DNA from: Laccaria trichodermophora
Taxonomy: Eukaryota; Basidiomycota; Agaricomycetes; Agaricales; Hydnangiaceae
NCBI GenBank assembly: GCA_018417955.1
Contig: JACTVC010000028.1
Span: 372,001-436,000, forward strand
Reading direction: 5' to 3'
DNA length: 64,000 nt
Both the position numbers and the translations under genes were made by a program. Position 1 is the first letter of the stretch. Every line of letters begins with the position of its first letter. Below are positions 34,985-64,000 of this stretch, in pieces. The notes under the pieces were generated by a model, which had not been told where the DNA came from, did no database searches, and saw nothing but the letters and a program-made list of their open reading frames with translations.

Positions 34985-34985
34985 A

Positions 34986-35022
34986 TGGTGGGGGCACCGC
35001 GGACTTCATCAAGATGAAGTCC
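34986..35022 (+). promoter_or_regulatory. Candidate primer-binding site and leader hairpin
   Basis: One base after the 5' LTR lies TGGTGGGGGCACC (34986-34998), whose TGGT would pair with a tRNA CCA end; I cannot name the tRNA. Immediately after it is a perfect 10-bp inverted repeat, GGACTTCATC (35001-35010), AA, GATGAAGTCC (35013-35022). Confidence 0.55.
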
Positions 35023-41600: not shown

Positions 41601-42242
41601 CTTAGAATCGTGCATCGAGCTGGGCGAGTTCACTCCAACGTAGACCCTTTATCCCGTCTCATACGAATCCCGCCACATGACTCTCCGCTCAATGATGAGA
41701 ACGTATCCATAGAGCAAGATGCAGTCAAACGCAATATAGCGCAAAGGGCAGAGGATAGGATATTCAGAGCTGCGGCTCCCAAGGCCGCGTTTTACGTAAC
41801 GCGATGGGACGATGTCGTGGATAAAACGTCAGCCATCGCGCGAACCAGACGACAACTCGCTGCTGATAAAAAGCGCGAATCCGTTGGAACTGAGTCTAAA
41901 ACAATGGACGAAATCGAGACCTTACCACCTACTTTCTCTAATTCGAACCCAGACAGCGATGAACAAGGGGATGTATTGCCCTTCACGAGGGCTGAACATT
42001 GGACCTATCCTCCTGGCATCAAGCCTACGGAAAACTCCCCCGACGAAGGATGGAAGGAGCGAACACAACTCTTAATCTCTGTGGATCCTCAGATATGTAA
42101 GGAATTTGCGGAGGGTTATGAGACAGACGCATTCTTCGCCCCGCGCTACATCAAAGTGCAACCTAACGAAAACACCATAATCTCAGCTACTCATTTTCAA
42201 AGAGGACGGGATGACCTGTTATATTTCACGGATGCTAACTGA
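35655..42242 (+). CDS. Gag-Pol polyprotein (gag, protease, RT, RNase H) of the gypsy element
   Basis: The frame is open from 34725, but the likely start is the ATG at 35655 (MSSTIPSAGEVNPKNK); 2195 codons. Gag spans about residues 1-1000, with a Gly-rich linker (37630-37690), the capsid-like block 'LSPKMKEGIAQLAPFKWTSY' and a CCHC zinc knuckle (CYICTSPKHFHRDC, about 981-996). The aspartic protease has LDSGAD at about 1174. Reverse transcriptase shows 'YRKLNAKTIPDEFPIPR', 'FDALAGFTQLEM' and the YIDD catalytic box at 40705 (about 1684). RNase H begins 'YTDASDIALGA' (about 1832) and includes 'LITDHAALVW'. The frame ends at a TGA at 42240, just before the integrase frame, which is offset. A 44-nt candidate intron with a CTAAC branch site lies upstream at 35055-35098. 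Confidence 0.92.
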   Translation: MSSTIPSAGEVNPKNKSRSTNNSASRDLVTPLTTRKKGKSVSMTEEPDSEAVSPSNRSPLPSSGPVLTGPHAPDSLAKAGSSSNPAAPSSASRLPTLGISTSNPPAAPRSANDTRQSAPNRGARKSSTTGANRPAALTQEGPSQSDSVFVKDLLNLHTAMQITPNKDGTQTSTSSQTEEDENEDTPVDHGSASEFNTIFWDIEPYKNLQIWAEPITRSAVRIFGVFDPAADEDVLVPLGAIDGILPNREKDECEELRCALELVYKTPKDCRWDDLGAAIRKFASYEISKKDLLRYTGYEVVHGVERSLLLEASQVVVTVDQILQVLANFFNKRDRDRFVLDYDFLFLRMLASHTSRTELLATYRVLQHRTTVAAKHIAQEINALTRMYGSEDQMSVSSYESTKGSLRSIFGNGSARSKAGQLLARSEYYNKMPEDLTEIAAYLRRRAYKDSQIPKEPTIHRPKGFQGIYRAESHTTRNSSVTPTTRHDLARHPAATEGQNVRFASEPTVPGSISVLLSKRHAVSRLPGLGAVGVSAVGAPSVKALTTNNNRETVASSNNHTHHQAAAAFSSRIPSPKSWTSYTFKYKNGQNEARPGQPSNGNGNPTSGGNPLPHRQGPPSGGSTSSGDSGNARRGGNSGGPNGPTPPDSWYNPPRNNGGGGGAGGGGGGGGGGGGGGGNHVDSGLPDANVPPWWRIPEEWQLNRKLNSTVLPEWNGAGETAIEYLSSMGFLAGLSPKMKEGIAQLAPFKWTSYAQSWWETLPAPDREYFSNNWDNMMVGIQAHFLDEEWVRDRTFEFDEMTFRDKGHEQESPLEYVQRRIRYHHFLHPDEVDGPTAVARILRRQPVEWSHYLSEVISPTILSVQSVAKRMKNSLVTSWQQAERHKRPAPFYRNHRPRAAHAAEAEPISQGIQLESYSSDEEGELERDINFASNNNRRPPPRTGGRKPAPAKQEFPHGKTVNGVTFERDDTKVSPREPNGDCYICTSPKHFHRDCPHYGKWNALRNAHKIHIVWDEEEEADREYIVMLVETKTVISAYESEERLKTYAREIHSSQGINKESHAAIKRVGLTAKERDEYSNKPQVESSYHRVYPKHRNAHKAKGFSKGKNKESSTNPPAATSTKSEKARCIFEPGRVFPAEKGRSLPDGMGSLGTKALHMRAKVGSLESDSIRARLDSGADITLISEEYWKSMIDAPRLREGMRMRLYHLTGDAKVLGYIKTELFVLARDESIISFELEAYVVRNMNVSILLGEDFQTTYELGITRYASGHCEVAVGRSGRVISAASTHNIDLGFEIRAAFTSQSFIRRKAVTRAKRKGSADKSMEVIALDDTLIQPYSVCNVAVHSAFEGREDWIVEKVIIGTDDQNIMAAPTTWINSSCPFIPIANPSPHPRYLRAGEVVGYLLDPETAMDKPKDEEHLNRMAASAEALRTTILGTLKAQDLATATNATADSPGHDDRFEENEPWGPKTSAVPEDPVSGDVDKLVNLGPDIPEEYRERLSEVLRRNAAAFGVDGRLGQIKARVQIPLLPDTQPISEPMYGASPAKREVIDQQLKTWFEAGVIEPSVSPWGFPAVVVYRNGKPRLVIDYRKLNAKTIPDEFPIPRQSEIIQALSGAQVLSSFDALAGFTQLEMADDAKEKTAFRCHLGLWQFRRMPFGLRNGPSIFQRIMQGVLAPFLWLFALVYIDDIVVYSKNWEDHLDHLNRVLGAIAASGITLSPVKCFVGYSSILLLGQKVSRLGLSTHKEKVQAIMDLARPTSVSDLQKFLGMVVYFSSYIPFYSMIAAPLFDLLKKGAKWQWRAEQEVAYRQAKEALANAPVLGHPIAKQAYRLYTDASDIALGASLQQVQTIQVKDLQGTPCYERLEAAWKAGKEVPPLVAKLHKDQHEVKQLDEWGATLDETVVHVERVIAYWSRTFKSAERNYSATEREALAAKEALVKFQPFIEGENVTLITDHAALVWARVYENANRRLAAWGAVFAAYPGLRIVHRAGRVHSNVDPLSRLIRIPPHDSPLNDENVSIEQDAVKRNIAQRAEDRIFRAAAPKAAFYVTRWDDVVDKTSAIARTRRQLAADKKRESVGTESKTMDEIETLPPTFSNSNPDSDEQGDVLPFTRAEHWTYPPGIKPTENSPDEGWKERTQLLISVDPQICKEFAEGYETDAFFAPRYIKVQPNENTIISATHFQRGRDDLLYFTDAN

Positions 42243-42282
42243 AGACTCGACTCTGCGTACCCAAGTCCAAAGTAAATTATGT

Positions 42283-43606
42283 GTTGCGATGGATACACGA
42301 GTCTCCGTACGAGAGCGCTCACGCTGGTCCCCGCCGCTTTCTAGCGCGATTACAGGAGCTATTCTACTGGCCAACGATGAGCAAGGACGCGGAGGCGTAT
42401 GCTACTACGTGTGACGTATGTCAGAAAATCAAAACGGATCATCGTGCCAAGATGGGCGCGCTAAGGCCCGCGCATATACCATCAAGGCCATTCTCCACGG
42501 TATCAATGGATTTAATTACCGGTTTGCCGCCCTCGGGAGAGCAGGGGTACACCGCAATATTGGTAATAGTAGACAAACTTACGAAGTTTGCGATTATCAT
42601 ACCCACGCATATGACCTTGACGCAAGAAGGATTCGCAGAACTGTTCGTGGAAAGGGTTGTTAACATCTATGGCATGCCTGAGGTTATAATATCGGATAGA
42701 GATAGGAGGTGGGCCACGGTGTTCTGGAAGTCAGTGGTTGCAAATTATGGAAGCGTCATGGCTCTATCCTCAGCTCACCACCCCCAAACTGACGGGCAAA
42801 CCGAAATCCTCAACGCCATGATTGAGCAGATGCTTCGCGCTTATGTCTCTTCGGACAAGGAAAGTTGGTCGAGATGGCTCAGCGTCTTGGCCTATTCCTA
42901 CAATAGCAGCGTGCACTCTTCCACTAAATATTCTCCAAACTTTCTATTGATGGGCTATAACCCCCGTATTTCCATGGGGGCAATTGTACCGGAAGTGGAC
43001 CCTTCCAGACGTCCCTTTCTCCCCAGTCAATCGGCAGAGGACTTTGTGGAAGCCTTGGAAATCCATCGGACTTTTGCTAAAGACGCCATAGCTTTAGCCC
43101 AGGACCGGCAGGCCAAAGCTTACGATAAACAACGCAGACCCGTACAAGAATTGAAAATCGGGGATTACGCCCTGGTCAATCCTCATTCTTTAGAGCTAGT
43201 AGACGTCAAGGGCACGGGCAAGAAATTGGTACAAAGAATGATCGGCCCATTCGAAGTTGTGGAGAAGATAAATCCTCAAGTCTATAGGCTAAGACTACCC
43301 GACACTTACTCCATGCACCCAGTGTTCAACATAAGTCATTTGAAAAAATACATACACTCCCCGACTACACTAGGCGAGCGCTCCGAACTACCATCTACAA
43401 GAGACCTGAAGGCTTCCGAGGAATACGAAGTCGAGGCCATTCTTGGGCACCGCATGACCGGTAAAAGGAAAGCGAACCGCCGAATGTTTCTAGTCAGATG
43501 GAAAGGTTATGGTCCTGCAGATGATACATGGGTTACGGACTACGACTTACGAAACGCCGCTCGACTCAAAAGAGATTACCTCGAATCGACGGGCCTACGC
43601 GTGTAG
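42283..43606 (+). CDS. Integrase with C-terminal chromodomain
   Basis: The frame continues Pol in another phase and is open from before 42283 to 43606 (about 441 codons). An HHCC zinc-binding region includes 'CDVCQKIK'. The DDE core has 'MDLITGLPPSGEQGYTAIL', 'IISDRDRRWATVFW' and 'SSAHHPQTDGQTEILNAMIE'. A GPF/Y-like module precedes the end ('MIGPFEVVEKINPQVYRLRL'). The last 60 residues form a chromodomain ('YEVEAILGHRM', 'FLVRWKGYGPADDTWV'), which in chromoviruses targets integration to methylated-histone heterochromatin. The first in-frame ATG at 42281-42285 is probably not a real start; a frameshift from Gag-Pol or a sequence lesion near 42240 is implied. Confidence 0.9.
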
Positions 43607-47259: not shown

Positions 47260-47626
47260 TGTGATACCGTACTAGTACTTACATGACATAGGATCATCTT
47301 GTTGGCACCTGTTTGTTACTTGTTATATTGTGTTAGACTACGCTTTCTTGTAAGTTACCTTTTACCATGATTATACATAATACGTGGATTGGGTCGCGGA
47401 TACGATTTACGGTTAGGCGACCCATCGTCTCCCCTCCGGGATACAAGAGCCCTGCGCCGGGTGACAGCGCCCCGAGTCCGGGGTCACAGGACTTCATAGG
47501 CGCGCAACCGCCACACGGAACCGCGCCACCAACACAAGACAACTACGTAGTCCCTCCTACGACCGACACTCTCGCCTCACACTCACGGCTTCGTCGAGAA
47601 GACCACCACGACCGTCAGGTTTCACA
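47260..47626 (+). repeat. 3' LTR
   Basis: 367 bp, identical to the 5' LTR except one transition. Its last bases supply the stop codon of the interrupted minus-strand gene. Confidence 0.95.
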
Positions 47627-50600
47627 AACGGCCGCACTTTTCTTTCCCAGCGGGATCTGCACGTTTTTTCCCCAGTGCTTTGGTACTAGCAACAGGTCGT
47701 GCATGGGGACTTTGGCTTCCTCCATCCTCGTCTGATCCGTCACTGTCTCCCGAAGGCCTCTGTGGAGGTGGCTTACTTTCCACCAAACGACGTAAAATTC
47801 GCGTAAACTCCGTGCCGGGATCGCCTGACTTGTCATTGCCTGCTGAAGGTCTTTGTGCAGGACGTGTGCCCTTCACCAAACGACGTCGAACCTGATGAAT
47901 CCTCTCCTCCCTGGATCCGTCACCCAGTGGTGAAACCTTTTTCGAAGCCTTTTTGCTCTTGATTCGATGACGGTCATCCTGCTTATCGGCTTCCTTCATT
48001 ATCCTTTCGTCATCAGCCTCCTCCTCCTCAGTGTTCATCTTGTCGTGTCCAAGTCCCTGATTCTTTTGTGCATGTTCACGTAGCTCTAATTTTGCCTTCG
48101 TGGTCTGACTATAGTCACTGGGCGTCAATGTAGATGCTGTCCTGTACCCCGAACGATGGTGGTCCGTCTGCAAGTCGGCCTCTGAGTCTGGTTCTTCGTC
48201 TGGTATGCACTGCGCCTGAGGGTGTTGATTGCCATGGATGATGCAGGGAGGCAGGCCTCTCCGCTGGCTCGACTCTGTAACCTGGTCTTCTACTTCGAGC
48301 CCTGCCTCTGTTTCGGGTGCTTCGTCGGCTGTCTCTGCTTCGTCGCCCAACTTGCCAAACTCTGCTTCGTTGCCTGACCCTGCTTCATCACCCAACTCTG
48401 CTTCGTCTACTGATGCTGCATCGCACCCTGACTGTGGTTGGTCCTTAGACTCTGCATACTTTGCTGCCGAGCGTTTTGCCGCCAAGCGTTTAGCCCGATG
48501 CCTGGCGATTATCTCCGCTTCCTCCCACCATACCTCCACCTCTCCAAGACGGTTCGTCGCAGGAGGGGGATCGGTGGTGTAGCCTTCCGGGAGAGACTCC
48601 CATCGTTCACTCGCCCGATTGTGCCAGGAAGTAAACCGGGTATACGGATGGGCAGGGCGAGCATCTGTGGCTATCCAAATTCTCGAACGATGTCCAATGT
48701 AACCCATCCCTTCCATGACTCTGCCAATACGGCAGAAGTAAACGGTTACTGGATGCGGAAGAGATGACGGGGAAGGGAGGGGCAGCCCATCATCTGATGG
48801 CATCGTCGAATCGAAATCTTCATCACTGGACGCCGGGTCAGGGGTCTTGGGTTCACGATAGGCCAATGTAGGATCAATAAGAAGTAAGGAAGGTATGTCG
48901 GGCCTATTGCGTAACGTGTAGAGGCCACGCGAACGAGGCTCAGCCTGAGTGGGGCCGGGAATGGGTGAAGAGGGAAAGACACCAGATGATTCATTTCTGT
49001 AGCGTAGTCAAAAACCACTCTTACTCTAAATAATCCAAGATACGTACGTCGGAATGAGAGTTGATCTGATGGAAAATGTGGCCTCCACTGGCGGAGAAAC
49101 TCTGGCAGAAGCAGCACTACAAGTCATGGTAAGCCAGATAGGAACAATCATGATAAGTGACTCACGTCAACCTGGCCTGGACAGACAACGGAAGGCCGAA
49201 CCCAATCAAACCAGACATTCCCCTGAGGCATAAGATCAATACGGTCTTCGTCAGAGCTCCTTTTCAGCACTTACCTGCCCCCCGTATTGTCTGCGCGACG
49301 TGCAGGCGGGGAGTTCTCCAAGTATGATGGGCGGTTCTTCGGATCTTTGTTAAAGTACAAGTCATCAGCAGCTACGGTCAAATTGTCCATGACTCTGCAG
49401 AGTTACAGTCAGTCGTACACCCAATCAATGTAGATGTCTAGGCAACCAACCGATTGGTGTGGGATATAAGTTCCTGGGTGGGAGTTGCGTCTGGATCAGC
49501 AATATTATGCACCCTGTAAAGTTGTTAGAGAAATTTTGAACAAGGGGAAGCAGCGAACAAGGAGTTAACGCTGGTGAAACCCGAGTGAAATGACATGGAG
49601 TCAAATTTCACTCAGGTGAGGACTCGCCGCGACAAGGAGTCAAACGGAGAGCCCTGAAAAAGGCAGACGTACGCACACTTGCTTGAGGCCGTACATGCGG
49701 AAAGACTTCGTCAGACTGAGCTTGACGTGAGCCGAGTGGGAGCCAGTCCCAGACGCCGCACCACTCCCTCCAGGGACCGCATCGGTGAAGACATTGTCGA
49801 CGATGGGGTTTGACCCGTCACCAACGTTCAGCTTCAGTGGATCGGAATCCAGCAGCTGATTAGCCCTCAGTTTGAAGGCGGAGATGGGCACCACCTCCAT
49901 TGAACGTCCCAGAGTCTCACAGGGTTCAGTGTCGACAATGGCGTCGTTCCCATCTTGGTTGTCCATGAACCTAAAGTTCACGATCAGACTCGCACCACCC
50001 CGGATGAATCGCTAACGAGACCTCACCTGATGTTGTCCGCCATTGGGGTAGACTTTTCGGGTTCAGAATCACTTGGTAGAATTTTTGTTTCTGCCTTGGA
50101 TTTGTTTCTGCACCCAAACATTACTTCGTTGATTTCCCTTGAGAGGCAAACACATACTTTTTGGCCCGACTGGGCCTGGAAGCCACCGGAGTAGGAGCGT
50201 CGTCAACGGCGGTGTTGACTACAGCCTCCGACTTTTCGGGTTCTGACTGACTCTGTAGATTCTTCTCTACAGGCTTGGCTTTATTTCTGCAATAAAACAT
50301 TAGTTCATTGTTTTCCCTTAAGCCGCAAACCTACTTTTTGGCCCGACCACGTTGAGCAGCAGCCGGTGTAGGAGCCTCGTCAACGGTGGTGTTGACTACA
50401 GCAGCAGCGACCTTCCTGACTCGAGTACGAGGGCCTGTGGCCTGAGTGGGCGCGGTCTTCCCGACGACGTCGCCGCCAGTCTCAGCATCTGTTACACTGA
50501 AATACGTTGAGGTGGAAGTTATCGCTACCAAGGGTAAGACCATACCTATCGTCGTGTGTACTTTGTGCCGCCTTCACCGCTCCCTTCTGCAAAAATATTT

Positions 50601-50721
50601 TAACGACGTGGCAAACGGTGGCAGAGGAGTCTCTAACCTTGGGGGAAGCATTGCCTCTACCCACCACAAGGGGTGGAACGACAACAGGCTTACGAGAGCG
50701 AAGTTGACGAGGTTCTGACAT
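47622..50721 (-). CDS. Unknown multi-exon protein, 3' end replaced by the LTR
   Basis: Eleven exons: 50721-50638, 50586-50546, 50496-50335, 50286-50158, 50107-50027, 49970-49677, 49513-49451, 49394-49275, 49222-49166, 49116-49048, 48996-47622; 824 codons, all phases agree. I do not recognise the family. It starts basic ('MSEPRQLRSRKPVVVPP'). Three exons carry a repeated module around 'SEPEKSEAVVNTAVDDAPTP' and 'SRAKK'. The middle reads 'KLNVGDGSNPIVDNVF' and 'HVKLSLTKSFRMYGLKQ'. The C-terminal part has 'YFCRIGRVMEGMGYIGHRSR', 'WWEEAEIIARHRAKRLAAKR' and long acidic/Gln-rich low-complexity stretches. The final TGA lies inside the LTR, so the natural C-terminus is lost. Intron 6 is one of the long triple-hairpin introns. 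Confidence 0.75.
49514..49676 (-). repeat. Triple-hairpin intron I (163 nt)
   Basis: Coding intron of the minus gene, donor GTGCGT at 49676. Hairpins on plus coordinates: 49552-49572 (stem AGCG/CGCT), 49582-49614 (9-bp stem GAGTGAAAT/ATTTCACTC), 49627-49647. Read on the sense strand their 13-nt cores are TTAACTCCTTGTT, TTGACTCCATGTC and TTGACTCCTTGTC. The first has inner stem AAC/GTT instead of GAC/GTC, a compensated change. Confidence 0.85.
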
Positions 50722-51379
50722 TATAGTTGTTAGTTTTGGTATTGGCTTTTTTGTTCGAAATTCGAGGGCTTTTTTGTGAATGGGAAAGGTCAGAGAGGCG
50801 TCCACGGGGTTTCTAATATATATTCATCTTTTTACTTACGTCAGGACAAAACCAAGCTAACCCGAAGGGATTTGTTGTTGCATGTTATGCGTGTAATGTT
50901 GCACTACAGTTGGAATTCATTGTAATGACGAGGCGCAAGTCCCTAATCTCGGGGTCAGCTCATAGCAATAATCGGGCGGATTGGACATAGACAATAGCTT
51001 ACACGATGGATCTGTATAACTGACCAGCCATAATGAAGAACTTAGCTGGTGCCTTAAATTAGGCATTGGCATTCAAATTCTGAAATAGATATATCCGCGA
51101 TGAGCGCATCTACGTAGGTCGTCGAGGCCAACTTACCCTGCCAAAAGAGAGAGGGACGGAGGTGCCTAAACAAGGCCAAGGAACAACATCGCTGCATAGC
51201 GTCCGGGCTATTGTTGGGTTGAATTAGACGGCCAGCCACGAGTGGGTGCAGGGTTGACAATAGCATTGCCGGGCGAGCTTCTATAGCACTAGGTAAAGTC
51301 GGCAGGTTTCATACGTGTTGTGATCAAGAAGGTGGATCGGAGTGTGCGCAAGCGATAGAGGTCCCATGATAACCAGCTC
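50722..51379. other. 5' flank of the minus gene, no ORF supported
   Basis: Probably leader and intron sequence of the minus transcript. No coding exon recognised. Confidence 0.35.
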
Positions 51380-51431
51380 GAACGGCGGGCAGCACTGGTC
51401 TGAAAGATATAGCGCGAGAACTGCCTCCGAT

Positions 51432-51610
51432 CTGTGTGAAAACAATTAGCATTGACTTCAAGCTGGCCCTTTGAGAAAATAGCGGCGACAACGAGTCAAA
51501 CCGCCAGAATGAAAAGCCGACAAGGAGTCAAAGCCTTGGCCACGAGGACGACAAAGAGTCAAATCCATGTGCGCCAGAAGGGGACAAAGCAAGTCAATCG
51601 AAGTACTCAC
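51432..51610 (-). repeat. Triple-hairpin intron II (179 nt)
   Basis: Donor GTGAGT at 51610, acceptor CACACAG ending at 51432, branch-like GCTAAT. Hairpins at 51482-51504, 51512-51537 and 51541-51571. Sense-strand cores: TTGACTCTTTGTC, TTGACTCCTTGTC, TTGACTCGTTGTC, each closed by a U.G pair. Confidence 0.8.
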
Positions 51611-51855
51611 ATTTCAAGAAAGTGAAACCATCCGCCCAGAAGAAAGGACGCGGTGAAGAAAGGACCTTGAAGGAAACAAGAGAAACGTCGGACAAACAGG
51701 GAACAAGGGAAGGGGGATGCGTCGGAGAAAGAAGGCGGGAGAGTGGCTTTCAACAGCGATCAATCACATTTGAAAGAGGCGGCGATGTAAGGAGCGTGAA
51801 CGGCGGGCAAGAATTGGCCCGACAAGTTAGAATGGCCTAGCACAGAAACACCGAT

Positions 51856-52035
51856 CTAATTGAAAACAATGAGCATCGTCTTCAATCCGGCGATTTGAGA
51901 GAAAAGCGGCGACAAAGAGTCAAACCGCCAGAGTGAAAGGCCGACAATGAGTCAAGGCCTTCGCAACAAGGACGACAATGAGTCAAATCCTTGTGCGCTA
52001 GAAGGGAGACAAAGTGAGCGAATGGGAGTACTCAC
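51856..52035 (-). repeat. Triple-hairpin intron III (180 nt)
   Basis: Donor GTGAGT at 52035, acceptor ATTAG ending at 51856. Hairpins at 51906-51928, 51937-51961 (perfect AAGGCC/GGCCTT stem) and 51966-51994 (ACAAGGA/TCCTTGT). Two of the three cores have loop TCATT. It is the duplicate of intron II with stems changed but still paired. Confidence 0.8.
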
Positions 52036-52305
52036 ATTTCAAGAAAAAACCATCCACCCAGAAGAAAGGACGCGGTGAATAAAGGACCTTGAAGGATACA
52101 AGAGAAGCGTCGGACAAACAGGGAACAAGGGAAGCGGGATGCGTCGGAGAAAGAGGGCGGGAGATCTAGAGTGGCTGTCAACGGTGATCAAAAGTTCGGA
52201 GATCAAGATCAGAGTTTGATAAGATAATACTGTACATGTAAGAAACCTTACCTGTGCTCTTTCAAGTTACTCTCGTCGTCCACTGCCTCGCAGACGAACT
52301 ATACG
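52036..52305. promoter_or_regulatory. Bidirectional promoter / first-exon zone
   Basis: The hairpins face left up to 52035 and right from 52306, so both transcripts should start in this interval. No clear TATA pair seen. Inferred from intron orientation. Confidence 0.45.
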
Positions 52306-52467
52306 GTGAGTAATGCCCAATACATCTCTGTGGCCATGAAGGGCCGGGATTGGACTCTTTGTCGTCCCGTGTAGGCAGACCTTGACAGACCTTGACTCCT
52401 TGTCAGTCTGAGTTCGATCGAGTTGGACTCTTTGTCGCTCGCATCGTTGGTTAGCTTATTCACGTAG
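52306..52467 (+). repeat. Triple-hairpin intron IV (162 nt)
   Basis: Donor GTGAGT at 52306, acceptor CACGTAG ending at 52467, upstream of the ATG at 52625. Hairpins: 52345-52369 (CGGGA/TCCCG), 52386-52410 (CAGAC/GTCTG), 52419-52441 (CGAG/CTCG). Cores: TGGACTCTTTGTC, TTGACTCCTTGTC, TGGACTCTTTGTC. Confidence 0.85.
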
Positions 52468-52624
52468 GGTACTGGCGCTGACATGTTAATTTTGGTAGGG
52501 TGGTCCGCTCCTTGCGCCAAGGTTACATCCCGCGAACCAAGGCTCTGGCTCACGTTGGCCTCGGATTTGACGACGTAATCGCCTCTTTTGAACCTCGCTA
52601 GGTCGCTTCAATTCCTGTAGTCCG

Positions 52625-53309
52625 ATGGGTGACCTTTGGATGACGGTGGACTTCGCGATAGGTGAGTTTTTAAAAACGGTATAGTTCCCTGGCTAACTAT
52701 CCGTGTACTAGGCTTCCTGAAATTGCTATTTAGTTGATGGTGCTGCCATTTCCCCTCCATCGCTCGCTCACCCCTTGAGCACTGGTGAGCTGTCCTCCGA
52801 TGGCATGGCCTCTGGCAGACATAGCCGTGGGAGCGGATCGCACTCACCACCACCCACCATTCCCTATCCCGCGCCCGTTCCCAGGTCGCATCGCTTCAAC
52901 CCGATCGTCGCACCCACGTCTCGGGCCAGTGTTAGGGCACACAAACGGAGATCAAGCAGGACAAACGACGACAGTGATGAAGAGGACGACGACTTCCAGC
53001 CAGCCAACCTCTCAGCTGGAGGTGCCGATTCGTAGGTTTAATTTGGACTAATTCTTACCCATTATCTTCTTAGGCACTGCGAGACCATAGACGCCAAAGG
53101 AAGTGCGGAGAGGGATTATCTTGTAGGGAAAAATGGATCGTGTGGGCTAACACCTACGCGGTGTCCTGAAGAGCGTTGTGAAGAGCTGGCGGCTCATATC
53201 AGGTGCTGTTGCTCAAATATGTTGGCTTCTTCACAGCTAACATCCCTGCCTCTGCCTTCTACTCAGAAACTCGCGGCAGATAGTGAAAAACGACTCCAAT
53301 TCAAAATAG
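52625..53309 (+). CDS. Unknown small protein with cysteine motif
   Basis: Four exons: 52625-52661, 52734-53031, 53074-53202, 53267-53309; 168 residues with consistent phases. No family recognised. The N-terminal two thirds are low-complexity: Ser/Pro/Gly/His-rich ('GSGSHSPPPTIPYPAPVPRS'), then a basic patch ('VRAHKRRSSRTN') and an acidic patch ('DDSDEEDDDF'). The C-terminal 60 residues look folded, with 'KNGSCGLTPTRCPEERCEEL' and 'AAHIRNSRQIVK'; three or four cysteines could bind a metal. Its 5' leader carries triple-hairpin intron IV. It lies between the divergent minus gene and the larger plus gene at 54302. Confidence 0.65.
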
Positions 53310-53704
53310 TAGCAATGAGGGCTCGAACATCGGAGTGAACATCGGAGGACGGTTATTTAGAGGGTGGCACGCGAAGTTAAATGGAGGACACTGGCGAATT
53401 TGGGGGTGACCGTGTTTCGGAGACAACAGGATCGCTCAGGTGGTAGGTAAACATAACAATGCGCACTTTCCTACATTACAACGAAGCGCAAGAATGCGTT
53501 GTGGTCAGTTCGTCCTCATGGCGCGTATTACTATCAAGTCCAAATATTGACGCGTCTGATGTTCACGTGATACCGCTGATCCACGTGATTGGATTTTTGG
53601 GTGTTGATCAATGATCAACAGCGGTCCTACTTACCCGTTCCTTCTCAAGTCTCCTCATTGTTCCTCGAACTCCACAATAACTGGCGCCCAGCGGGACTCA
53701 AACA
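53310..53704 (+). other. Intergenic and promoter of the 54302 gene
   Basis: No ORF. Leader exon sequence of the next gene appears to end at 53704 (ACTCAAACA before the donor). Confidence 0.45.
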
Positions 53705-53891
53705 GTGAGTATTGCGTTTCGCCCCATTATCTTTCCCTCTCTTTCTGGAACTCGACTCCTTGTCGTTCCTTGGGATTGTGTGGATCTTGACTCCTTGTCG
53801 ATCCACCTTCCCTCCTTCCTGGGTTAGACTCCTTGTCGCTCAGTTTCGTTTCGCTTGGCCCCAGACCTACATACTGATCCGTCGTTCGTAG
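53705..53891 (+). repeat. Triple-hairpin intron V (187 nt)
   Basis: Donor GTGAGT at 53705, acceptor TTCGTAG ending at 53891. Hairpins: 53747-53769 (GGAAC/GTTCC), 53780-53806 (GTGGATC/GATCCAC), 53819-53843 (CTGGG/CTCAG with a wobble). Cores: TCGACTCCTTGTC, TTGACTCCTTGTC, TAGACTCCTTGTC. It is followed by a 55-nt leader exon and a normal 59-nt intron (53947-54005). Confidence 0.85.
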
Positions 53892-54118
53892 GTGTTCGCA
53901 AGCATCCTTCATTGTTTGCCCTTTGCCGAACAATACTTCGTTGATTGGTGAGTATTTCTTGTTGGCATGTATTCTCTTACTGATCAGCCGTTCCCTCAAA
54001 CTGCAGCCTCATTTCTCATTGCTTGAATCTTCCGAGCCGCACGTCTCTGGGGCTTCTACCGCCTCTCTCTCGCTTCCGGCTACCTACTCTAGTGCTCTAT
54101 CGACTGGTTTCTGATTGG

Positions 54119-54299
54119 TGAGTGGTCGTCCACTGGATTCGGCCCTGTTCGATCGCGGAATTGGACTCCTTGTCGTTCCGTTGGAGGATATATATCTTGA
54201 CTCCTTGTCGATATATGTCCTCTCCTCGTGTTTGACTCTTTGTCGCACGAGGTTCTTTCAACAATTCTGACTATGATTCAATTCTGACTGTATTACTAG
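54119..54299 (+). repeat. Triple-hairpin intron VI (181 nt)
   Basis: Donor GTGAGT at 54119, acceptor ACTAG ending at 54299, three bases before the ATG at 54302. Hairpins: 54156-54180 (CGGAA/TTCCG), 54186-54220 (11-bp stem GGATATATATC/GATATATGTCC), 54224-54252 (CCTCGTG/CACGAGG). Cores: TGGACTCCTTGTC, TTGACTCCTTGTC, TTGACTCTTTGTC. Confidence 0.88.
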
Positions 54300-54301
54300 C
54301 C

Positions 54302-56884
54302 ATGGCCGATACTACAATTCAAGATTCGAAACCTTATTACAAAGAATACACGCGTGATTCGGACCGGGATTTCCTCGCGACGGATGCCTACTGTTGGGAT
54401 GTTATCGATCGCAAGGTTCGGACGAGGGAGGTTGGGAGTGAGGCGGGGATCAACACTTTTATCGAACATCTGGACAAGCTCGACCCCGCCTCCTGGTGGG
54501 TTATCACTACTCCGAATGCGGGTTACATCCCGACAGCTCCAATTGGCATTCGACGTATCCAAGCAAAGGCAGATGGCCGCTTTGGATTAGACGATCGCAC
54601 CCTCCACCCCCAGATGTACGTCCAAGGTTTTGAGTACATCTGCTGCATCCCCCAACGCGATCAGTCTCGCCACATGTTGTGGTGGACACCCACCCTCGCT
54701 GATTGCCCCATGATTCCCAATTCACCGTTCTCCATCACCATTCGCGTACTCAAGCCAGAACTCCTGAAGGGGTACAAGGATCTTCGTGACAAGTATGTTG
54801 GTTTAATCGCAAAACGAGAGGGACGCGACCGCTCCCCTCTTGCGGGTCTTTTGGTTACCACAATGTGTCAAGCCCTTGATAGGCTTCAATCGTTTGGGAT
54901 GACTTACAAGGAAATCCTACTCGGCGTAGCAGAATTCCAGAGGGCTGTCCTTGACATCCACGCGTGGATCGATTTCGTAGACGTTTATCAACCTCGTCTG
55001 TTTCCTGGACCCAATGGCGTGGTGAAGTACGATGCCAATCAGGCTCTGATGGGGGCTTTCACGGAAAAGGTTCAGGTCGCTCAACAACTGCAGGCGATGG
55101 GGATCCCTGTATGGCTGATCCGCCCCTCATTTCGAATCCTCCCCACCATGAATGTCAACATCCCTTCTTTCCAGCAACATTGCAAGATGATCGTTCTTGA
55201 GCATTTCAAGGATCATGAGGGCACTTTAGACCCATACCCTGTTCTGGTGACTGGTCCGCCCTCGTCCGAACTTTACAGGTGGACCCAACGTATAGGCTGC
55301 GCAATCATGGACCTTCAAAATGTCACTGCAATCGGTCGACAAGACTTTATTGAGGGGAAAGCTAGTATTGGGGCAGTTCGAGACGAATGTAAGTTTTCAG
55401 CTTGTAATGATGCAACCCACTTCACATACCTCAATGAAGATTCTATTCCTGTGCCGTCCGCATCCGCGTTGTCGTCTGCGGGGAAAGTTGGCCCATCTGG
55501 TTGGTTCTTTCGTATTTCTTTCTATGTAACCTTGGAGACTAATTTCTGCCTTTCTCTCAGCTTACCTGTTACCATCCAGCAGTGTCGGACAACAACCCTC
55601 AGCTTCCAGAAGTGTCGGACAACAACCCGCACCATCCTCGAAAGGTGGGTCTCACCATTCTAAGCTTAACATATGTAGTAATTGAGAATTCTGGCAGTTC
55701 TGCTTTCTGTGGCCTCTCAGCAGCTGTCCCGACGCTCCTCGGTACCATCCATCCCACCGGTCATGCCCAACCCAACACGTCATGGTGGTCCAGGACCTTC
55801 GAAGCGCCCTCGCATAGCTGAGGCGAACGCGGCTGATGTCAACTCTCCTTTCATGCCTGTCCCCGTTCCCACGTGGGCCAACGCTTTACAAAACTTGGAT
55901 ACCGATCGTCGTCGTTTGAGACGTCAGCCAGGGGATGTGAACATCGGGTACAAATACCCGAAACCAGAGATTTTCTTGAACTCCAAGAATCGGGCTTTGT
56001 ACACTGCTACTTGGCTTGCTATCCGGGCTCATCATGCTTACACACTGGCAACGGCAACCGAGCTACCGCCACCTATCACTGCCCAGCAATGGCGGAATTT
56101 CCTCTTGCGAATCATACCCTTCTTGGATGCTGATGACATCGATTATACAGCGGATGTTGAAGATACCACCGCCGTACCGTTGCCTCCGCAGCCTGCCACG
56201 AAAGGGAAACAGAAAAAAGTTGGTGCCTCGTCCCGAAAGAAACATGTCAAGAAATCGAACTCGTACCTGGAGGAGATCCCCTTGGGAAACACCTTGATCG
56301 ATCGGGTGGTCTTTTATGATACAACCATCCAGTTGGGCACAACACAGGAGCTTGAGCGGGCGTTGACGCCAGAGGTCACTCAGGAGATTCTCTGGGAACT
56401 CTGCCACATGAGTTTCCGGATTGAACTCTTGAGCCTAGATGCTCTCCTTGCCGACACATTGTACCATGGCTGGTGGGGTGTTACAGATGCAGAAGCGGCG
56501 AGGTCTCGCTCAGAGCAACTTCTCAGGGTATTTCCCTTGTCGGGTGATGTGCTCGGATCTTTTATGATCAACGAAATCCCCAATCGCGACTTGGGTTTGA
56601 CATCGTTTGATCTGGAAGAACGGAACCGTCATCTTGTGGAGCTTGGGAGGTTGATGTGTCCATGGAAGGGTTGCCCGGATTCAATTAAGGATGCTAGCCA
56701 CCTACCGATAGAGGCGCATGTTCAGGCACTGGAAGAAGCATGTACAAGCTTCTACTGCCAGTCTTTCTTTGACAACTTTGGTCGTGCACCCATCATCCCT
56801 TGTCGCCTTCCTCGTCGTTCTCTTGCACGCCCAGAGCCAGTTAGCTTTGCAGATTCAGTGACGTCCGCCCTGCCCTCTTCGTAA
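54302..56884 (+). CDS. Unknown 805-residue protein
   Basis: Four exons: 54302-55388, 55440-55499, 55561-55644, 55698-56884; phases consistent. No named family recognised. Exon 1 is globular: 'DAYCWDVIDRKVRTREVG', 'WWVITTPNAGYIPTAPIGIR', 'DDRTLHPQMYVQGFEYICC', 'ITIRVLKPELLKGYKDLRDK' and 'QLQAMGIPVWLIRPSF' (about 262-277). A Ser-rich linker contains a short direct repeat (SVGQQPSAS/SVGQQPAPS). Exon 4 encodes a second globular part with a basic stretch ('GKQKKVGASSRKKHVKK') and 'HLVELGRLMCPWKGCPDS'. The 'GIPVWLIRP' segment resembles 'GIPCFVVREL' in the extra ORF of the neighbouring retrotransposon. No membrane segments. Leader introns V and VI have triple hairpins, so expression may depend on their structure. 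Confidence 0.75.
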
Positions 56885-57086
56885 TTTTGTACAGTCATAC
56901 CATGTTTCTCGGACTTTTTTGTCATGTCGGCCTCATTATTGTTCTTGCCATCGCCACATGACCCATAATTTGATCTTCCTCGTGTTTGCGGTTGCACCCG
57001 GTTCTTTGAGGGGTTAGTTGTGTACGTGGGTAAGATTTTCTTTCCTTTTTTCCCTCACATCCTTGCTTGTTGTGCTTGTGAATTCT

Positions 57087-60000
57087 ATGGCTTTCAACAA
57101 GAGCCGTTACTTGGGCAAGGCTGGGATTGCTATTGGATCTCCGTCATTGAAGAAGAAGTCCTCAGGTCATACTTGGGCTTCTACTAGTGACTCTACTGTG
57201 TCCCGTCGTCCTTATGGGTTGCCAGGCATTCAGATCTTACCTAGGCAAGACTTGACCACTCCTCTGGGGTCATTTAATCAGATTTCAATGCCCACTGGGG
57301 CTGATTTGCATGATGCTGCTGCTGCTGCTGCTGCTGAGGATGATTTATCTGACTCCTCAGGTGGTGACTCTGAAGATTCTGTTGAAGATTCTGCTAGTGA
57401 TGTCCTTCACCCTTTGGTGTTTCCTGCAGAGCAAGTTTCCCCAAAGAAGAGATTAGACAAAAAGTTGGCCTTGTGGAGGAACTGGGCTTTGAAACTGATC
57501 CCTGAACTTTTGGATCCTTATCTGGGCTTGTTGAGGGAGTCTGAGAATTTGAGGAACATAGATAGGAGATTACCTCATTGTTCTTGCAATGGGACTGGGC
57601 ATAAAATGAATGTTATTGCTGTGTTCTTTGAAAGTGAGTTGCTTTATTGTTAAAATATCAACTTGTAATAATTTACATCCATCTAAGAACTTGTTTCTGT
57701 GGAAGTCTGTTCTTGCTCTGCAGCTTTTCAGCTCTTGGCCATGGGTTTGTTTCCAGCCTCACCCCTTCGACCAATGTTAGCTGTGGATTTGAATATGCTT
57801 GACTTTGTAAATGAGCTTTTTGTTCGTTCACCTCCGAACACTACTGCATGGTGTGACTCAGTTGAGGCATTTCTGGGTTCTCGCACTTATAAGCTTGAGA
57901 GTAAAGATGCCATAAGGCGTCGCTTTGGAAATGCACTACAGTGGTATGGAAATCTCATTTCCCAGAAAGATCTTTTGATATCTGGGGTTATAAATGAGGG
58001 TCGTCTAAATTGGCTCAAGGAGGCTGGGTCTCCACTTGAATCAGATAATATAGACACAGTAGACCAAAACTATGAACCTCCACCTTCTTCTAGTCCTACT
58101 TCAGTGGCAGATAATGCTAGTGATGATTCTCATGAGAGTCAGAATACTACAAACTCTGATTCTGATATTCCTCGTCCAAGTGAGTACTTGCGGAAGCGAT
58201 GCCCTCTCTGTTTTGGTGGGGATAATCCACATGACCCAAATTTTATGTAAGTGATTTTTTAAATTGGGTCAAAAATAGATTCTGATGACTGGTACATTTC
58301 AAGGGTGGATGTCATTGTATGCATTGATGCTTGTTTTACTCACAAAAGAAGAAACCCTGCAAAAGGTGGGGCAAAGGGACCTGAAAATCTGCATCCTGAT
58401 ACAGTATTTGTGCCTGAGAAATATGTAATGGAGATGAAGGCTTTAGTTGAAACAGTTCGACCAGAGAAGTCCAAAGGAAAAGAAAAGGCTAATTTATCAT
58501 CTGATGAACAACCTGCTGAAGACTCATATGAACCTGGCATGAAGGTCCCTGTCTCAGCTTTGGAGGGATGCCTGGCTTCCTTTATTGCAGCAGATGAGAG
58601 AAGAACTAAAGCCAGCACACAGTTCTTTGCAGATACAGGTCTTATGGCCATGCTGTGTCGTCATGACCATGTTCTCTGGCTAGTAAACATGACTACTGCT
58701 GGAGAACACCAATACTATGCTCTGGTATTGATAAAAATGCTGTTTATGAATTTGCCTTTATCAATGACAGTTGGAATTTTGTATGACATTGGATGCCAGT
58801 TGGAGAGAAGTTGCCAAATTTGGGGGTTTCTGGAGGAATTCATGGCAAGAATCCTTTTTGCACTTGCAGTTTTCCATGCATATGGACACCAGTGGCCCTG
58901 CCAACTTGTTTATCACCCTCGTAAATGTGAAGGTTTTGGCCTCTCTGATGGTGAGGGTTGTGAACGTTTCTGGAGTGCTATCAAGTTATTAATTCCTTCA
59001 ATGCGTGTGGCAGGGGTAAGTGTCTATCTCATGTATATGTGAAATTAAGCTGATAACTGAGCCAAATAGTTTTATCATCAGCTGTTTACCATTGATACTC
59101 AGGTCAAGCATCTGGATAAAAAGTCTTTTGATATGATGGGTAAATGGCTTCAACGCAAATGGTTGTCTTGCATGGAAAGAAAAATTGAGGCTGAATTGAT
59201 TCTCAATGAACTGGGGTTGGAAATTTCTTTGCTTGAAAATGAATGGAAGCAGCAAGTGGCGGCACAGACCAAGCCCTTGGCACGACAATCAAAGAATATT
59301 GCAAATGTTGCAATTAAGGAAATTTTGGCTTTATATACTGCAAAGAAAATTTTTGCAACAGAGTTGGGAGGGCTTGATGACCAGCTAATTTCTGGGGTCT
59401 ATGGGGATGATATGTCAGTGGAGGATGTTTTGGCTGCACGTAAAGCAATCATGAAGAAGCAAGGTGTGATTGAGGCAAATATAAAGACAAAGAAGAAAAG
59501 GCTGGGGGTTAAAGATAAGGAAGATTTGAAAAGTTTGATGGGCAATAAGTTTCTTCAATTGAAACTTAATGCCAGGGCTCTTAAACAAAGACTCAGAGAT
59601 CGTTTAAGAAATCGGAAATTTGAATTGGAAAGGTTAGAGAGAGCATATCGACAAACAACTTCCAATGGTAAGGAGTTTATCTAACACAGACCACTCACTC
59701 TTTGTTGACTTCTATTTTAATAGAGACTAAATTACATTCACATGTCCAGAAACAAGTCAATAGGCAGCAACCAACAATTGCTAGATTGGCAAAGAAGTAC
59801 AATGACATGTGCTATGATATGACAAAGCAAATCCAGCAGGGAAAGGCCCCTGGCAATTCTATAGCCCCTGTGCCAATCAATCAGGAGCATTTATTTGCTC
59901 TAGATGTGGATGATGACATCTGGCAGGATGTTGGATTAGATGAGAATGAAAGTGAGGTTATACCTGGCTGGCTTGGGGATGAGAAGATTCGTGAAGGAAT

Positions 60001-60604
60001 CAAAGGAATGCTGACAACCAAGAGATGTGCAGAAGAGATGGCTAGAATCAAACGAGAGCGAACAGCCCTGCAGGAGTGGTCAAGGGAAGAGTGGGAAGCT
60101 ATCAATATGGCCATTCTTATGTGTGGTAAGCTTGTTTGAATTGCTATTTGAGTGTATCTAACAGTACTGTTCTTTATTACAGAGGATGAAGACATTGAGC
60201 ATCAGTTGGTTATCAGAAAGTCAAGACATCTGAGTTTGTGTGCACAGTGGAGGCAACAGGTGTCTCTGATTCCTGGCACATATCCAATGTTGAAAGGATG
60301 GGGACCTGATGTCAAAGATTTGGAGACTGCATTGAAGGAGTTGTCACAAGAAAATGTTGATGAAGAGGAAAGTGATGATGAACAGTTGAATTGCACATAT
60401 AATGTTGAAGAAGCAGACAACAACAATGTTATTGAAGAGACAGAATCCATGGCAGTGTCAGATGCATTCAGGGTAGCAGATAATGGGCTGGCCTTTGGGA
60501 GATGGGAGAGTGAGGATTTGTGGGAGGATCTGGAAGATGATGAAGAAGATGACTTGGATGTTGGAACATCTCGTAAGAGGTCAAGGCAGAAGTATTATAG
60601 GTAG
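57087..60604 (+). CDS. CxC1-type KDZ transposase, AT-rich copy
   Basis: Six exons: 57087-57633, 57688-58246, 58304-59015, 59103-59667, 59724-60125, 60183-60604; 1068 residues, all phases consistent, no internal stop. The start at 57087 (MAFNKSRYLGKAGIAIG) is chosen over an upstream hydrophobic extension. Order: 'CPLCFGG' (about 353), 'DVIVCIDACFTHKRRN', 'LMAMLCRHDHVLWLVNM', 'LYDIGCQLERSC' (about 527), 'VFHAYGHQWPCQLVYHPRK', 'GEGCERFWSAIK' (about 584), then long charged coiled-coil regions and an acidic C-terminus. These match the 26538-30973 transposase block by block, but there is no Ulp1 protease domain and far fewer introns. Codons are strongly A/T-ending. The intact frame suggests recent activity. 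Confidence 0.88.
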
Positions 60605-60805
60605 GTTTGGTGGGAAAAAAGTTGGAATGAAATTGTCATGAGATGATACAATTTGAAGCTTGGTAAGGTTTGGAAATATCAATAACAATCAAAGAGCTGC
60701 CTGGTAGGAAATGATAAGTACAGTTAGTAGTTAGTTCATAGAATTGTAGAATGGTACAATTATGAATGGATATACTAGTTGACAGGAAGGTTTAAGTTAG
60801 AGATT

Positions 60806-61316
60806 GCAATACCATGGTATGGTATGAAAGTGCAATACCATGGTATGGTATGAGAGTGCAATACCATGGTATGGTATGAGATTGCAATACCATGGTATGA
60901 TATGAGAGTGCAATACCATGGTATGGTATGAAAGTGCAATACCATGGTATGGTATGAGAGTGCAATACCATGGTATGATATGAGAGTGCAATACCATGGT
61001 ATGGTATGAAAGTGCAATACCATGGTATGGTATGAAAGTGCAATACCATGGTATGGTATGAGAGTGCAATACCATGGTATGGTATGAGAGTGCAATACCA
61101 TGGTATGGTATGAAAGTGCAATACCATGGTATGGTATGAGAGTGCAATACCATGGTATGGTATGAGAGTGCAATACCATGGTATGGTATGAGAGTGCAAT
61201 ACCATGGTATGGTATGAGAGTGCAATACCATGGTATGATATGAGAGTGCAATACCATGGTATGGTATGAAAGTGCAATACCATGGTATGGTATGAGAGTG
61301 CAATACCATAGTATAA
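60806..61316. repeat. 26-bp minisatellite with a palindrome in every unit
   Basis: About 19-20 copies of GCAATACCATGGTATGGTAT+GAGAGT, with few substitutions (GAGAGT/GAAAGT, GGTATGG/GATATGA). Each unit contains the perfect 12-bp palindrome ATACCATGGTAT. A degenerate patch of the same words (GGTATGGTAT) lies at about 61775-61920. Confidence 0.95.
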
Positions 61317-62104
61317 TATTTTGATAATGAAGACTCTCAGAACACAAGACTTGATCCCATTTACAATTAACAAGACTTTGGGATTGGATAGATTCACTCA
61401 GCTTTGATAAAATTGGACCAAATATTATGACAAAAGGCCAAACATTTAGGACAACAATACTTCATTCCATGATTGCAGTGTTTAAGAAAATTGAGATTGT
61501 ATGATGGTGTTGTTGGCAAGACTATATGTGTATTCTAATGGATAGGACAGGGAGATATATGTATCATCTGACAGCTTTGATGCATGGGAAAGCTAGGATA
61601 ATCCCCATTTGAACTGACTGGCTTGGACTATCTGGCCTCAATTTGTAGCCTAATATCTCAGAAAAAACCTGGAGAACCACCCCACAAAATATGGCACCCA
61701 ATGGACCACTATTGCAGCCTACAGAAATAATTTATATATTTTGAAAAAAGGACCCCAGACACCCTGTGACAGCTTTGGTATGATGGTATGAAGTGACATC
61801 ATACCATATGGTATGGTATAACATGACATGGTATGGTATGGTAACTTGGTATTGGTATGAGTGGGATATGGTATGAGTTTTCCATTCCATGGTACCATGG
61901 TATTGGTATGGTGCTCACATACCACTCTGGAATGGGTACCATTGAGGTACCCTTAAATCAAAGAATTCATATACCTCATAGGTACCCAAAAATGGGTGAC
62001 TGAAGTGTTCAGATGAGGAAGAAGCTTCTGAGTAAGTAGTGTTATGATTTTCTTTCTTTTCTTTTTGATGTGTTTGGAGTGTAAATGAAAGAAGAAATAC
62101 TGAT
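61317..62104. other. AT-rich spacer between two KDZ genes
   Basis: No gene. It contains degenerate GGTATGG repeats around 61775-61920. It may hold the ends of one or both KDZ elements; I could not define TIRs. Confidence 0.4.
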
Positions 62105-64000
62105 TTGTACAATAGTTCTAGTTTCCTTTTCAGATTTACTTTTCTGCTCTTGTCATCAGCTATATCACTTGTATCCCAGCACTGGATTTTAGTCTGGCTC
62201 TTGATCTGGTCAAATCTAGTTTCATTGGCATCTGCTACCTCTTCAGGGCAACGTCCTTTTCCAAATATTCCATTCAGCATATTTAGTGATGCAATCCAGA
62301 CAATCTTTGGCTCTAATATTTCTTTGGCAACTGTTCTCACAATCTCATTCACACTATTTGAGAATCCCGATTTATTAAATCTTCATTTTCGTCAACAACA
62401 ATGGATTTGTGGTGATGAAAACAAAGTGCAGATTTCAGGATGGATAATTGCATTGAGCAATGCACTGGTAAACAAACTTGGAAAGAAGAGGGTTGAAACT
62501 TTATTCTCTGAAAATGAACTTGCACGAGAGCCAGATGAAAAGGCAAAAGTTGATCTTCTTGCTGGAAAGCTTGACAAGCTGGCTGGCTGCTTGAAACTAT
62601 CAACATTTGATGAGAAGGGGGGTTATAAAGGAAAATTACTCCCTCTATCACACAGCAAGATAGAACCAGCTTATGTCATTTGCCCCCCTTCATTTGCATG
62701 TGAAACTCAGAGTTGTAGTCCAAGATCATTGCGTCAATCTACCAAAAGTAGTGACATACCATTGGTTACCTTGATCAAAGAGCAGAGAGTATACCAAGAT
62801 GTCCCTGTGCTTACAGGAAAGTGCCCAAACTGTAAAACATTATACACAGCCGATCATGAAAGATTTGAAGATACATCAACTATTCAAAATACTTTGAAAC
62901 GAGTCTATCTTAACTCAGCCAAATATTTAAAAATTGGCCAATCAATCTGGACTGATTGTGGATTTGCAATGGCAGCTATAAATGCTATGTATAACTTTCA
63001 TGCTTCAGCATCTGCTTTCTCAGAGTACTGGAATAATACATATGGAACAAAAGAAATTTCAATTTCACGAGCTCATGTCTGGCAAGCATTTGTTCAACAA
63101 TCTGTTCGCACAATTGCTGAAGAATCTGGAATTGATGCTGAATTTGATGATGGATTGAATATCAAAGAAGTTACTACTCAGGCATTTTCACTCTTGGGGG
63201 AAGATGGAGTCATCAGAGCTTCAGAAGGACATGCATGTGATGAATGTACTCAAAAACGCAAAGATACAAGTGATGTGGTTTTCAATAATCCAGCAGCAGT
63301 TGTTGGTGTTGATGCCACAGATGATGATATTCCTGCTTTGGCAGCAGCTCCTGAAGAAATGGAAGTTGATGCACCTCAGGTCACTTCAGATAATGAGATG
63401 GATACTGATGATATCCCAAACATAAAAATGGTTGTTCTTGATGGTATAGTTATGGGTCCTCAGGTAAATGACTTTTACATTTTGTTCATGGAGTTTGTTT
63501 GTTCACAATGATTTTTTCTAGCACTGTGCATATGAGAATTGCACTAATGACCTCTCTAACTCTCGTGGTGGATCTCTATGTGATATACATCACATAATGC
63601 TTGCTACTCAATGCTTGGTCTGTGACTGTAATAACCGAAGAGTAGAAAGAACACTTGCATGTGAACAGCACCAACCACAGTGGCGTAAACATACAAAGAA
63701 CAGCAAACGCCACAACCAGGCTGGAGTTCGCTGGATGTTACAACGCCCTGGGGAGAATAATCCTTGGGAGCCCCGTCGCAGAGGACCAAATCCCCAACAA
63801 CATGATGAACCAAATGAAGAACCACAGCCACCTCCCAATTACTTTCGTGCTGCTAGATTCTACTGTGTTGAAACTATTTGTGCACCTTGTGGTGTTGTTA
63901 TTGCATGGGCCAAGTTTCCAAAATCAGAATCACCAACCAATATTTTGAACTTTCTAGCAAAGGTTTATCCAACAGAAGAATCAAGGCCTGATTATATCTG
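62105..64000 (+). CDS. CxC5/CxC6-type KDZ transposase, 5' part
   Basis: Exon 1 is open from about 62105 to 63463 and exon 2 from 63522 to the window edge; intron 63464-63521. The true start is uncertain. The protein has 'LTGKCPNCKTLYTADHERF' (CxC5 cluster), 'DGFAM/WTDCGFAMAAINAMY'-type helical region, 'HACDECTQKR', then 'CAYENCTNDLS', 'LCDIH' and 'CLVCDCNN' (CxC6-type cluster), and 'FYCVETICAPCGVVIAWAKF', which leads into the KDZ catalytic domain beyond 64000. CxC5 and CxC6 clusters are known companions of a KDZ transposase lineage distinct from CxC1. Together with 57087-60604, this means two different KDZ lineages lie within 7 kb. Codon use is as A/T-rich as in its neighbour. Confidence 0.85.

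Follow-up and report, generated by a model that had tools for sequence, protein, structure and literature searches.

Why do six neighboring introns in a mushroom genome each carry a row of three hairpins built around one core? The question is raised by a stretch of 64,000 nucleotides (nt) from Laccaria trichodermophora (contig JACTVC010000028.1, positions 372,001 to 436,000), hereafter the window, in whose own numbering positions are given below. A preliminary description of these introns had offered an introner-like family or a structured regulatory intron as explanations. Our results support the latter, through covariation in the stems and through array blocks that are mostly better conserved than the neighboring non-coding stretches, and they add two aspects that the description had missed: the arrays are hosted by a KDZ DNA transposon, with the divergently transcribed accessory genes A and C, and another KDZ subfamily in the same genome carries a second hairpin type with its own loop. 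The selected entity is RNA.

Hairpin arrays in the introns of a transposon

All 18 hairpins previously reported from the six introns were found. The exact core GACTCNTTGTC occurs 16 times in the window, against 0.16 expected, always within 49631-54244. With the two remaining cores, AACTCCTTGTT at 49556 (AAC..GTT, a compensated pair) and GACTCCATGTC at 49592, the whole set lies within 49.5-54.3 kb; the core thought to be common to all 18 is thus exact in 16 and altered in two. The hairpins share a layout in which a variable outer stem leads to a Y-R pair (mostly U·G) and a 2-nt bulge (mostly UU), followed by a GAC/GUC stem that carries a loop of 5 nt. The pair adjoining the bulge is U·G in 11 hairpins, C-G in four, U-A in one, G-C in one, and unpaired in one, and the hairpin at 52394 has a C/A mismatch beside the bulge. 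As described earlier, every hairpin in the window is sense to its intron; in five of the six introns, the cores are spaced 31-41 nt apart and start 35-50 nt past the donor. A search of 47500-57000 against Rfam returned one match up to an E value of 5, the sR30 snoRNA, which scored 15 bits against a cut-off of 38 and fell outside the arrays.

Three of the introns belong to gene A (47627..50724, minus strand; start codon at 50724, placed by eye), which is truncated in the window. These are, on the minus strand, a coding intron of 163 nt (49514..49676; cores 49556-49566, 49592-49602, and 49631-49641), a proximal leader intron of 179 nt (51432..51610; cores 51487-51497, 51519-51529, and 51550-51560), and a distal leader intron of 180 nt with ends placed by eye (51856..52035; cores 51911-51921, 51943-51953, and 51974-51984), which duplicates the proximal unit. 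On the plus strand, the leader of gene C holds intron C1 (53705..53891, 187 nt; cores 53754-53764, 53789-53799, and 53827-53837) and intron C2 (54118..54299, 182 nt; cores 54164-54174, 54199-54209, and 54234-54244), the second of which ends 2 nt before the start codon at 54302. The sixth, "B" (52306..52498, plus strand; cores 52353-52363, 52394-52404, and 52426-52436), measures 162 nt with the AG at 52467 or 193 nt with the AG at 52498. No branch-like YTRAY was seen ahead of the former, and a conserved CTGAC, read by eye, suggests the latter. Of the lengths first given, 163, 179, 180, and 187 nt stand, that of the last intron becomes 182 rather than 181, and 162 is perhaps 193. The assignment of the arrays to one coding intron also stands; that of the others to leaders of three genes fits two genes better. 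We rejected B as a protein gene, as no open frame common to four copies was seen by eye downstream of the 52306 intron.

The duplicated leader intron-exon unit of gene A occupies 51427-51763 and 51851-52191, and copy C19 (545-550k) has three gene-A leader arrays. Units from different copies match at 85-88%, which qualifies the earlier claim that outer stems are unrelated from hairpin to hairpin, as far as the two gene-A leader units are concerned.

That the arrays lie in introns is well supported by sequence comparison, because splice signals are kept in most diverged copies of the element and because a protein model from Laccaria bicolor skips the coding intron. In an array-by-array alignment, donors, branch-like sites, and acceptors are mostly retained, and the donor of intron C2 changes from GTGAGT to GTATGT between copies with the splice signal kept. 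The L. bicolor homologue of gene A, P0026, compared by eye and as protein only, omits the coding intron at the same place. In copy C34b, the aligned stretch shows no acceptor for the coding intron or the proximal intron of gene A, and in copy C1 none for intron C1; the latter copy also has no clear donor in introns C2 and B. In 100-base steps of a four-copy alignment, the distal A, B, and C array blocks are 0.63-0.92 identical to copy C30 and 0.55-0.84 to C34b, against 0.16-0.62 and 0.25-0.54, respectively, for the stretch 52500-53600 that separates the B from the C arrays. This difference is not seen throughout: the exon between introns C1 and C2 reaches 0.73-0.78 in C30.

Selection on RNA structure

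The stems are kept by selection. In the alignment of the 18 hairpins, both-sided changes occur in 9 of 11 pairs, the covariation score is 0.692 (shuffled, 0.209 +/- 0.034), and 87.9% of cells are paired (shuffled, 64.2%); the covariation signal is lost when the partner is slid by 1-3 columns. Between copies, with hairpins matched by similarity rather than by checked synteny, broken stem pairs number 6 in C30, 9 in C34b, and 19 in C1, against 22.8, 26.4, and 53.7 expected from random substitutions, and such low values were never reached in 500 trials each; 2, 4, and 18 both-sided changes, respectively, preserve pairing. The element loci examined contain 139 core-like sites, of which 130 have at least four of six outer pairs and reduce to 82 distinct hairpins of this type (type 1), which are related and hence not independent. 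In their outer pairs 1-5, read on the sense strand, G·U outnumbers A·C by 71 to 7 (21 to 5 with the first pair excluded), and it is from this excess that RNA emerges as the entity under selection. Three of the six introns, two of them entered one base short at the donor, also fold as wholes better than shuffles (z -4.5, -3.3, and -2.3).

We also considered whether TTGAC in the core, which fits YTRAY, acts as a branch-point decoy. The bulge is TC, TG, or TA in 19 of the 82 distinct hairpins, which breaks YTRAY, and the idea was therefore rejected.

Distribution in the genome

Searched across the 59-Mb genome, a lone core occurs 439 times against 135 for a reversed control, and is therefore often due to chance. 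Pairs of cores at the spacing of the arrays number 142, against 0 for the reversed pattern. The refuting test named in the preliminary description, applied as far as the searches reached, did not refute its finding. For 98 of the pairs listed (100 of the 142), a KDZ domain is found within 16 kb. The other two are C14:522693, with fragments of genes A and C on the same contig, and C3:1101473, where the two cores show 3 of 6 outer pairs. None of 19 cores outside arrays (18 short stretches, C1, C2, and C3) has five or six of six outer pairs, and none folds; L059, one of the 18 stretches, falls within a type-1 element. Another three cores, close to where C1 begins, do fold and resemble the gene A arrays. 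Run on 302 kb of loci selected for the element, a covariance model of the 18 hairpins gave 118 matches at E <= 1; its 15 matches in the window all fall within the six introns, with three overlapping hairpins not reported separately. Terminal repeats of the scanned copies contain no array.

Five loci on viral contigs have a paired core; with at most 5 of 8 outer pairs, they were set aside. Type-1 arrays with nearly equal internal spacing occur at G000:C1:2832-7527, C6:1207-3789, and C10:461890-466456, two of them within a few kb of the contig start, and the gene C copies on C63 and C77 have equal identity to the query. Together, these may possibly represent a subtelomeric duplication.

A second hairpin type in another KDZ subfamily

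Several gene C matches of lower identity (23-35%) adjoin other KDZ domains. The leaders at two such loci (C10 and C1), read by eye, each contain four tandem hairpins between GTATGT and TTATCTTAG, with the same bulge and GAC/GTC stem, mostly a U·G pair, and a loop of TTTGC and variants. The loop consensus of this type 2, whose gene C homologues are 25-29% identical, is TTYGC, as opposed to TCNTT in type 1. Its 13-mer TTGACTTYGCGTC occurs 52 times in the genome (control, 1), and 48 of the 52 lie within 13 kb upstream of a type-2 gene C match, 38 on the same strand and 10 on the opposite one, the arrangement seen with gene A in type 1. Both arms were read for 22 type-2 hairpins, 20 of them distinct; 113 of 140 outer cells are paired, against 82.5 +/- 3.9 when shuffled (0 of 2000 shuffles reached it), and G·U again exceeds A·C on the sense strand, by 17 to 3 among the distinct hairpins.

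The two types keep apart. In the full genome list, no exact type-2 core lies at a type-1 locus, and the type-2 elements on C1 and C2 contain no type-1 core among the matches listed. At the other gene C homologues, those of about 25% identity, two general pattern scans show no such hairpin pairs among the matches listed. A paired-core pattern admitting any loop whose second base is not C matched 85 places (control, 2); among the matches listed (76 of 85), 31 are type 2, 41 are a TTGACGTGTCGTC-like tandem repeat set aside by eye, and four are others. This repeat, TTGACGTGTCGTC(GTC)n, is dispersed (G000:C1:870081, C16:806192, C34:1275296, C38:175361, and others) and looks like a minisatellite rather than a hairpin array; at G000:C43:45469-45569, four overlapping pattern matches with a 22-bp period likewise reflect a tandem repeat. 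A candidate third loop in the TTGAC..GTC frame was rejected, as none of its five pairs lies at a gene C homologue in a by-eye comparison.

The KDZ element

Comparison of the window copy with six others revealed that 47627..62008 (plus strand) is part of one KDZ DNA transposon, running from element position 4714 to the right end; the left end is missing in the window, and the full-length copy, C31, measures 19.11 kb. The right terminal inverted repeat (TIR) of about 368 bp (61641..62007), which ends in GGGTGACTGAAGTG, has an inverted partner at the opposite end of C31, C22, C30, and C34b. The comparison of both ends covered these four copies, those of C19, C34a, and the window copy being incomplete. 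Read by eye from printed flanks, a target duplication of 7 bp is present at C31 and C30 and in 6 of 7 positions at C34b, and no recognizable one flanks C22. These discrete ends with target-site duplication, and a transposase domain (PF18758) at 58305-59039 with an E value of 1.5e-56 and 191.9 bits against a cut-off of 26.6, place the element in the KDZ superfamily.

The element ends CACTTCAG..CTGAAGTG, of the 5'-CA..TG-3' type, and the 7-bp duplication resemble those of Kyakuja in L. bicolor, which also has a KDZ transposase but is described without TIRs (Kyakuja-1_LB and -2_LB; PMC12730594). Because of its TIRs, the element was not filed as Kyakuja. KDZ1 of Cryptococcus resembles it in having a KDZ transposase and TIRs of some hundred bp (241 bp) but differs in its 8-bp duplications (PMC12810828). 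The words "hairpin" and "stem-loop" are absent from the main text of PMC12730594, as is "hairpin" from that of PMC12810828.

The element encodes a KDZ transposase (gene region 57018..60604, plus strand, its extent taken from open frames), where a scan of the window found no hairpin array, gene C, and the divergently transcribed gene A. The two open blocks of gene C, the KDZ partner gene (54302-55663 and 55682-56884, plus strand), probably form one spliced gene spanning 54302..56884. Its first block has 60 matches in the genome, and 54250-57250 has 39; the window itself lies within contig 21 of the searched genome. Gene C homologues were found in Laccaria, Hypsizygus, and Tephrocybe, and a gene A homologue in Laccaria. 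Copies C31, C19, and C22 match the window at 98.4-99.6% in long blocks, which suggests that the element moved recently.

Near the right end of the element, 60800-61314 is a tandem repeat with a unit of about 26 bp containing CCATGG, and related repeats (about 70%) stand near the other end of C31. Just beyond the right end, an open frame at 62105-63511 with a KDZ-transposase-associated CxC5 cysteine cluster is apparently part of another KDZ element. Upstream, 34725-43606 holds pieces of a Ty3/Gypsy-type retrotransposon (reverse transcriptase, RNase H, integrase parts, and a chromodomain).

A possible route to splicing control

What might the arrays do? We consider the chances about even that a protein binds the intronic arrays and controls the splicing of the accessory genes as a feedback; the binder, its source, and its effect on splicing are inferred. 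The arrays, situated in introns of genes A and C, would form in the nascent pre-mRNA shortly after the donor has been transcribed, and a protein specific to the family's loop would bind them, probably three or four hairpins together. Unbound, the intron would be spliced to yield productive mRNA; bound, it would be retained, adding upstream ATGs in some leaders or, with the coding intron, cutting protein A short, as reading gene A on into that intron meets a stop. A protein sitting 35-50 nt from the donor could either hinder or help its recognition, and the intronic site would confine the binder's action to nuclear pre-mRNA. In this way, the dosage of the accessory proteins could be matched to the copy number of the element.

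The binder would most likely be encoded by the element. In favor of this, one nucleus holds two loops, each associated with a single element family, as would follow if the recognizer came with the element; the two loops also suggest an RNA signal of its own by which each family controls its genes. More tentatively, and as something we hold to be possible but rather doubtful, element-encoded binders and arrays may co-evolve as a family-specific RNA code, by which related KDZ transposons each sense their own copy number through splicing without cross-talk. Candidate binders are the products of genes A and C, neither of which has a recognized RNA-binding domain. The C-terminal part of gene A is RG-rich in copy C31. 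In comparison with the C10 and C18 families, gene A is 55-57% and gene C 74-76% identical. Two gene A exons have matches at type-1 loci and at C5, C38, C47:0.4-2.3k, and others, and none at type-2 loci, as expected of a co-diverging partner.

Several observations weigh against this proposal. Pfam recognized no RNA-binding domain in the pieces of A and C, and two structure models of gene C (mean pLDDT 69.8 and 54.8) had no match in the PDB at E <= 0.001. Introns C2, proximal A, and B contain ATGs, but intron C1 has none and ATGs also occur in the leader exons of gene A, which weakens the argument from upstream ATGs. Minimum-energy folds of three introns recovered 6 of 9 hairpins as drawn, with one partial and two absent, and in 8 of the 22 type-2 hairpins the first outer pair, the second, or both are missing. 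The proximal A intron is no better conserved than its surroundings (0.42-0.45 and 0.22-0.38), in a region where the number of duplicated units differs between copies and the alignment is poor. Lastly, the match of copy C34a starts at 54323, downstream of all the arrays, and the 30 kb examined there has no array.

A hint of a KH domain in the A and C pieces (E 0.18) fell below the cut-off and was not used; the first gene C model had no match among viral structures; and in a second comparison, its matches to helical bundles reached only a middling Z (best 6.8) and were not taken as a relation.

Among other explanations, the hairpins could simply aid the splicing of long introns, by compacting the distance between donor and branch point or by binding a general host splicing factor, with no regulator specific to the element. 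In four of five introns examined, the array does come before a branch-like site close to the AG, and the favorable folds of three whole introns would suit compaction. Still, compaction could do without an almost invariant bulge, stem, and loop, one host factor on its own would leave the presence of two loops in the genome unexplained, and the transposase gene region in the window lacks an array; we consider this explanation unlikely. Alternatively, the arrays may act on another fate of the RNA, such as the export or retention of unspliced element RNA, for which Rev/RRE is the comparison system, or an intron-derived RNA cofactor of the transposition complex. The same evidence for RNA and for family specificity fits, as do the multimeric nature of the arrays and the RG-rich stretch in gene A; on the other side, the arrays are spread over several introns of two transcription units rather than lying in one transcript, and no observation sets this idea apart from splicing control. 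It, too, seems improbable to us.

A DNA site for a transposase or regulator, or a cruciform, lying in introns by chance has little probability. The core is an imperfect palindrome, and its copies cluster between divergent genes; however, the excess of G·U over A·C in both hairpin types is what RNA, but not a strand-symmetric DNA site, would be expected to show, orientation in the window always follows the intron, and the terminal repeats of the scanned copies are without arrays. Small-RNA precursors, that is, miRNA-like hairpins for or against the element, would account for tandem hairpins in introns, but most stems are short, and it is not the arms but the bulge, inner stem, and loop that are conserved in sequence, which makes them a very improbable alternative. 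Least probable of all is the introner-like family first suggested: these introns are repeated within one genome, similar in length, and share features, as introners do (PMC9860276, PMC4457414), and one intron-exon unit has been tandemly duplicated, but the arrays occupy the same positions in the copies compared and travel with one transposon, 98 of the 100 listed pairs lying near KDZ domains rather than in many unrelated genes, no spread to other genes was found, and none of the 19 cores outside arrays folds.

Precedents and significance

The proposed splicing control has precedents for its parts, although in them the site and the binder differ in kind. In yeast, a stem-loop region in the RPL22B intron is needed for the inhibition of splicing by Rpl22p (PMC4838235). 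The likeness lies in a conserved, structured RNA wholly inside the intron, as the sequence comparisons suggest here, but RPL22B has one structure in a host ribosomal-protein gene, in contrast to tandem rows of three or four short hairpins, almost invariant in their core, that recur in several introns of a transposon. In the Drosophila P element, likewise a DNA transposon under splicing control, retention of the third intron changes the product and limits transposition, with PSI and hrp48 binding an exonic silencer beside the intron (PMC7776569). There, host proteins act at an exonic site, whereas the arrays described herein occupy introns of accessory genes, with none seen in the transposase gene, and are family-specific.

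A literature search of titles and abstract openings, in which subscription literature was sparsely covered, returned, among the matches listed, no description of hairpin arrays in KDZ introns, and the main text of a report of 15 fungal RNA motifs (PMC5640933) contains neither "basidiomyc" nor "transpos". What is new would thus be the structured RNA element in transposons, its likely mode of action having precedents in RPL22B and the P element.

To our knowledge, how large DNA transposons of mushrooms limit themselves is an open question. A conserved, countable intronic RNA signal with two natural specificities in one genome makes such self-limitation directly testable, and the hairpins serve as markers of KDZ elements as well as of their leader introns. 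If the element does encode a binder, the result would be a new pair of RNA and protein that has a short tandem array as its site and comes with a second, natural specificity.

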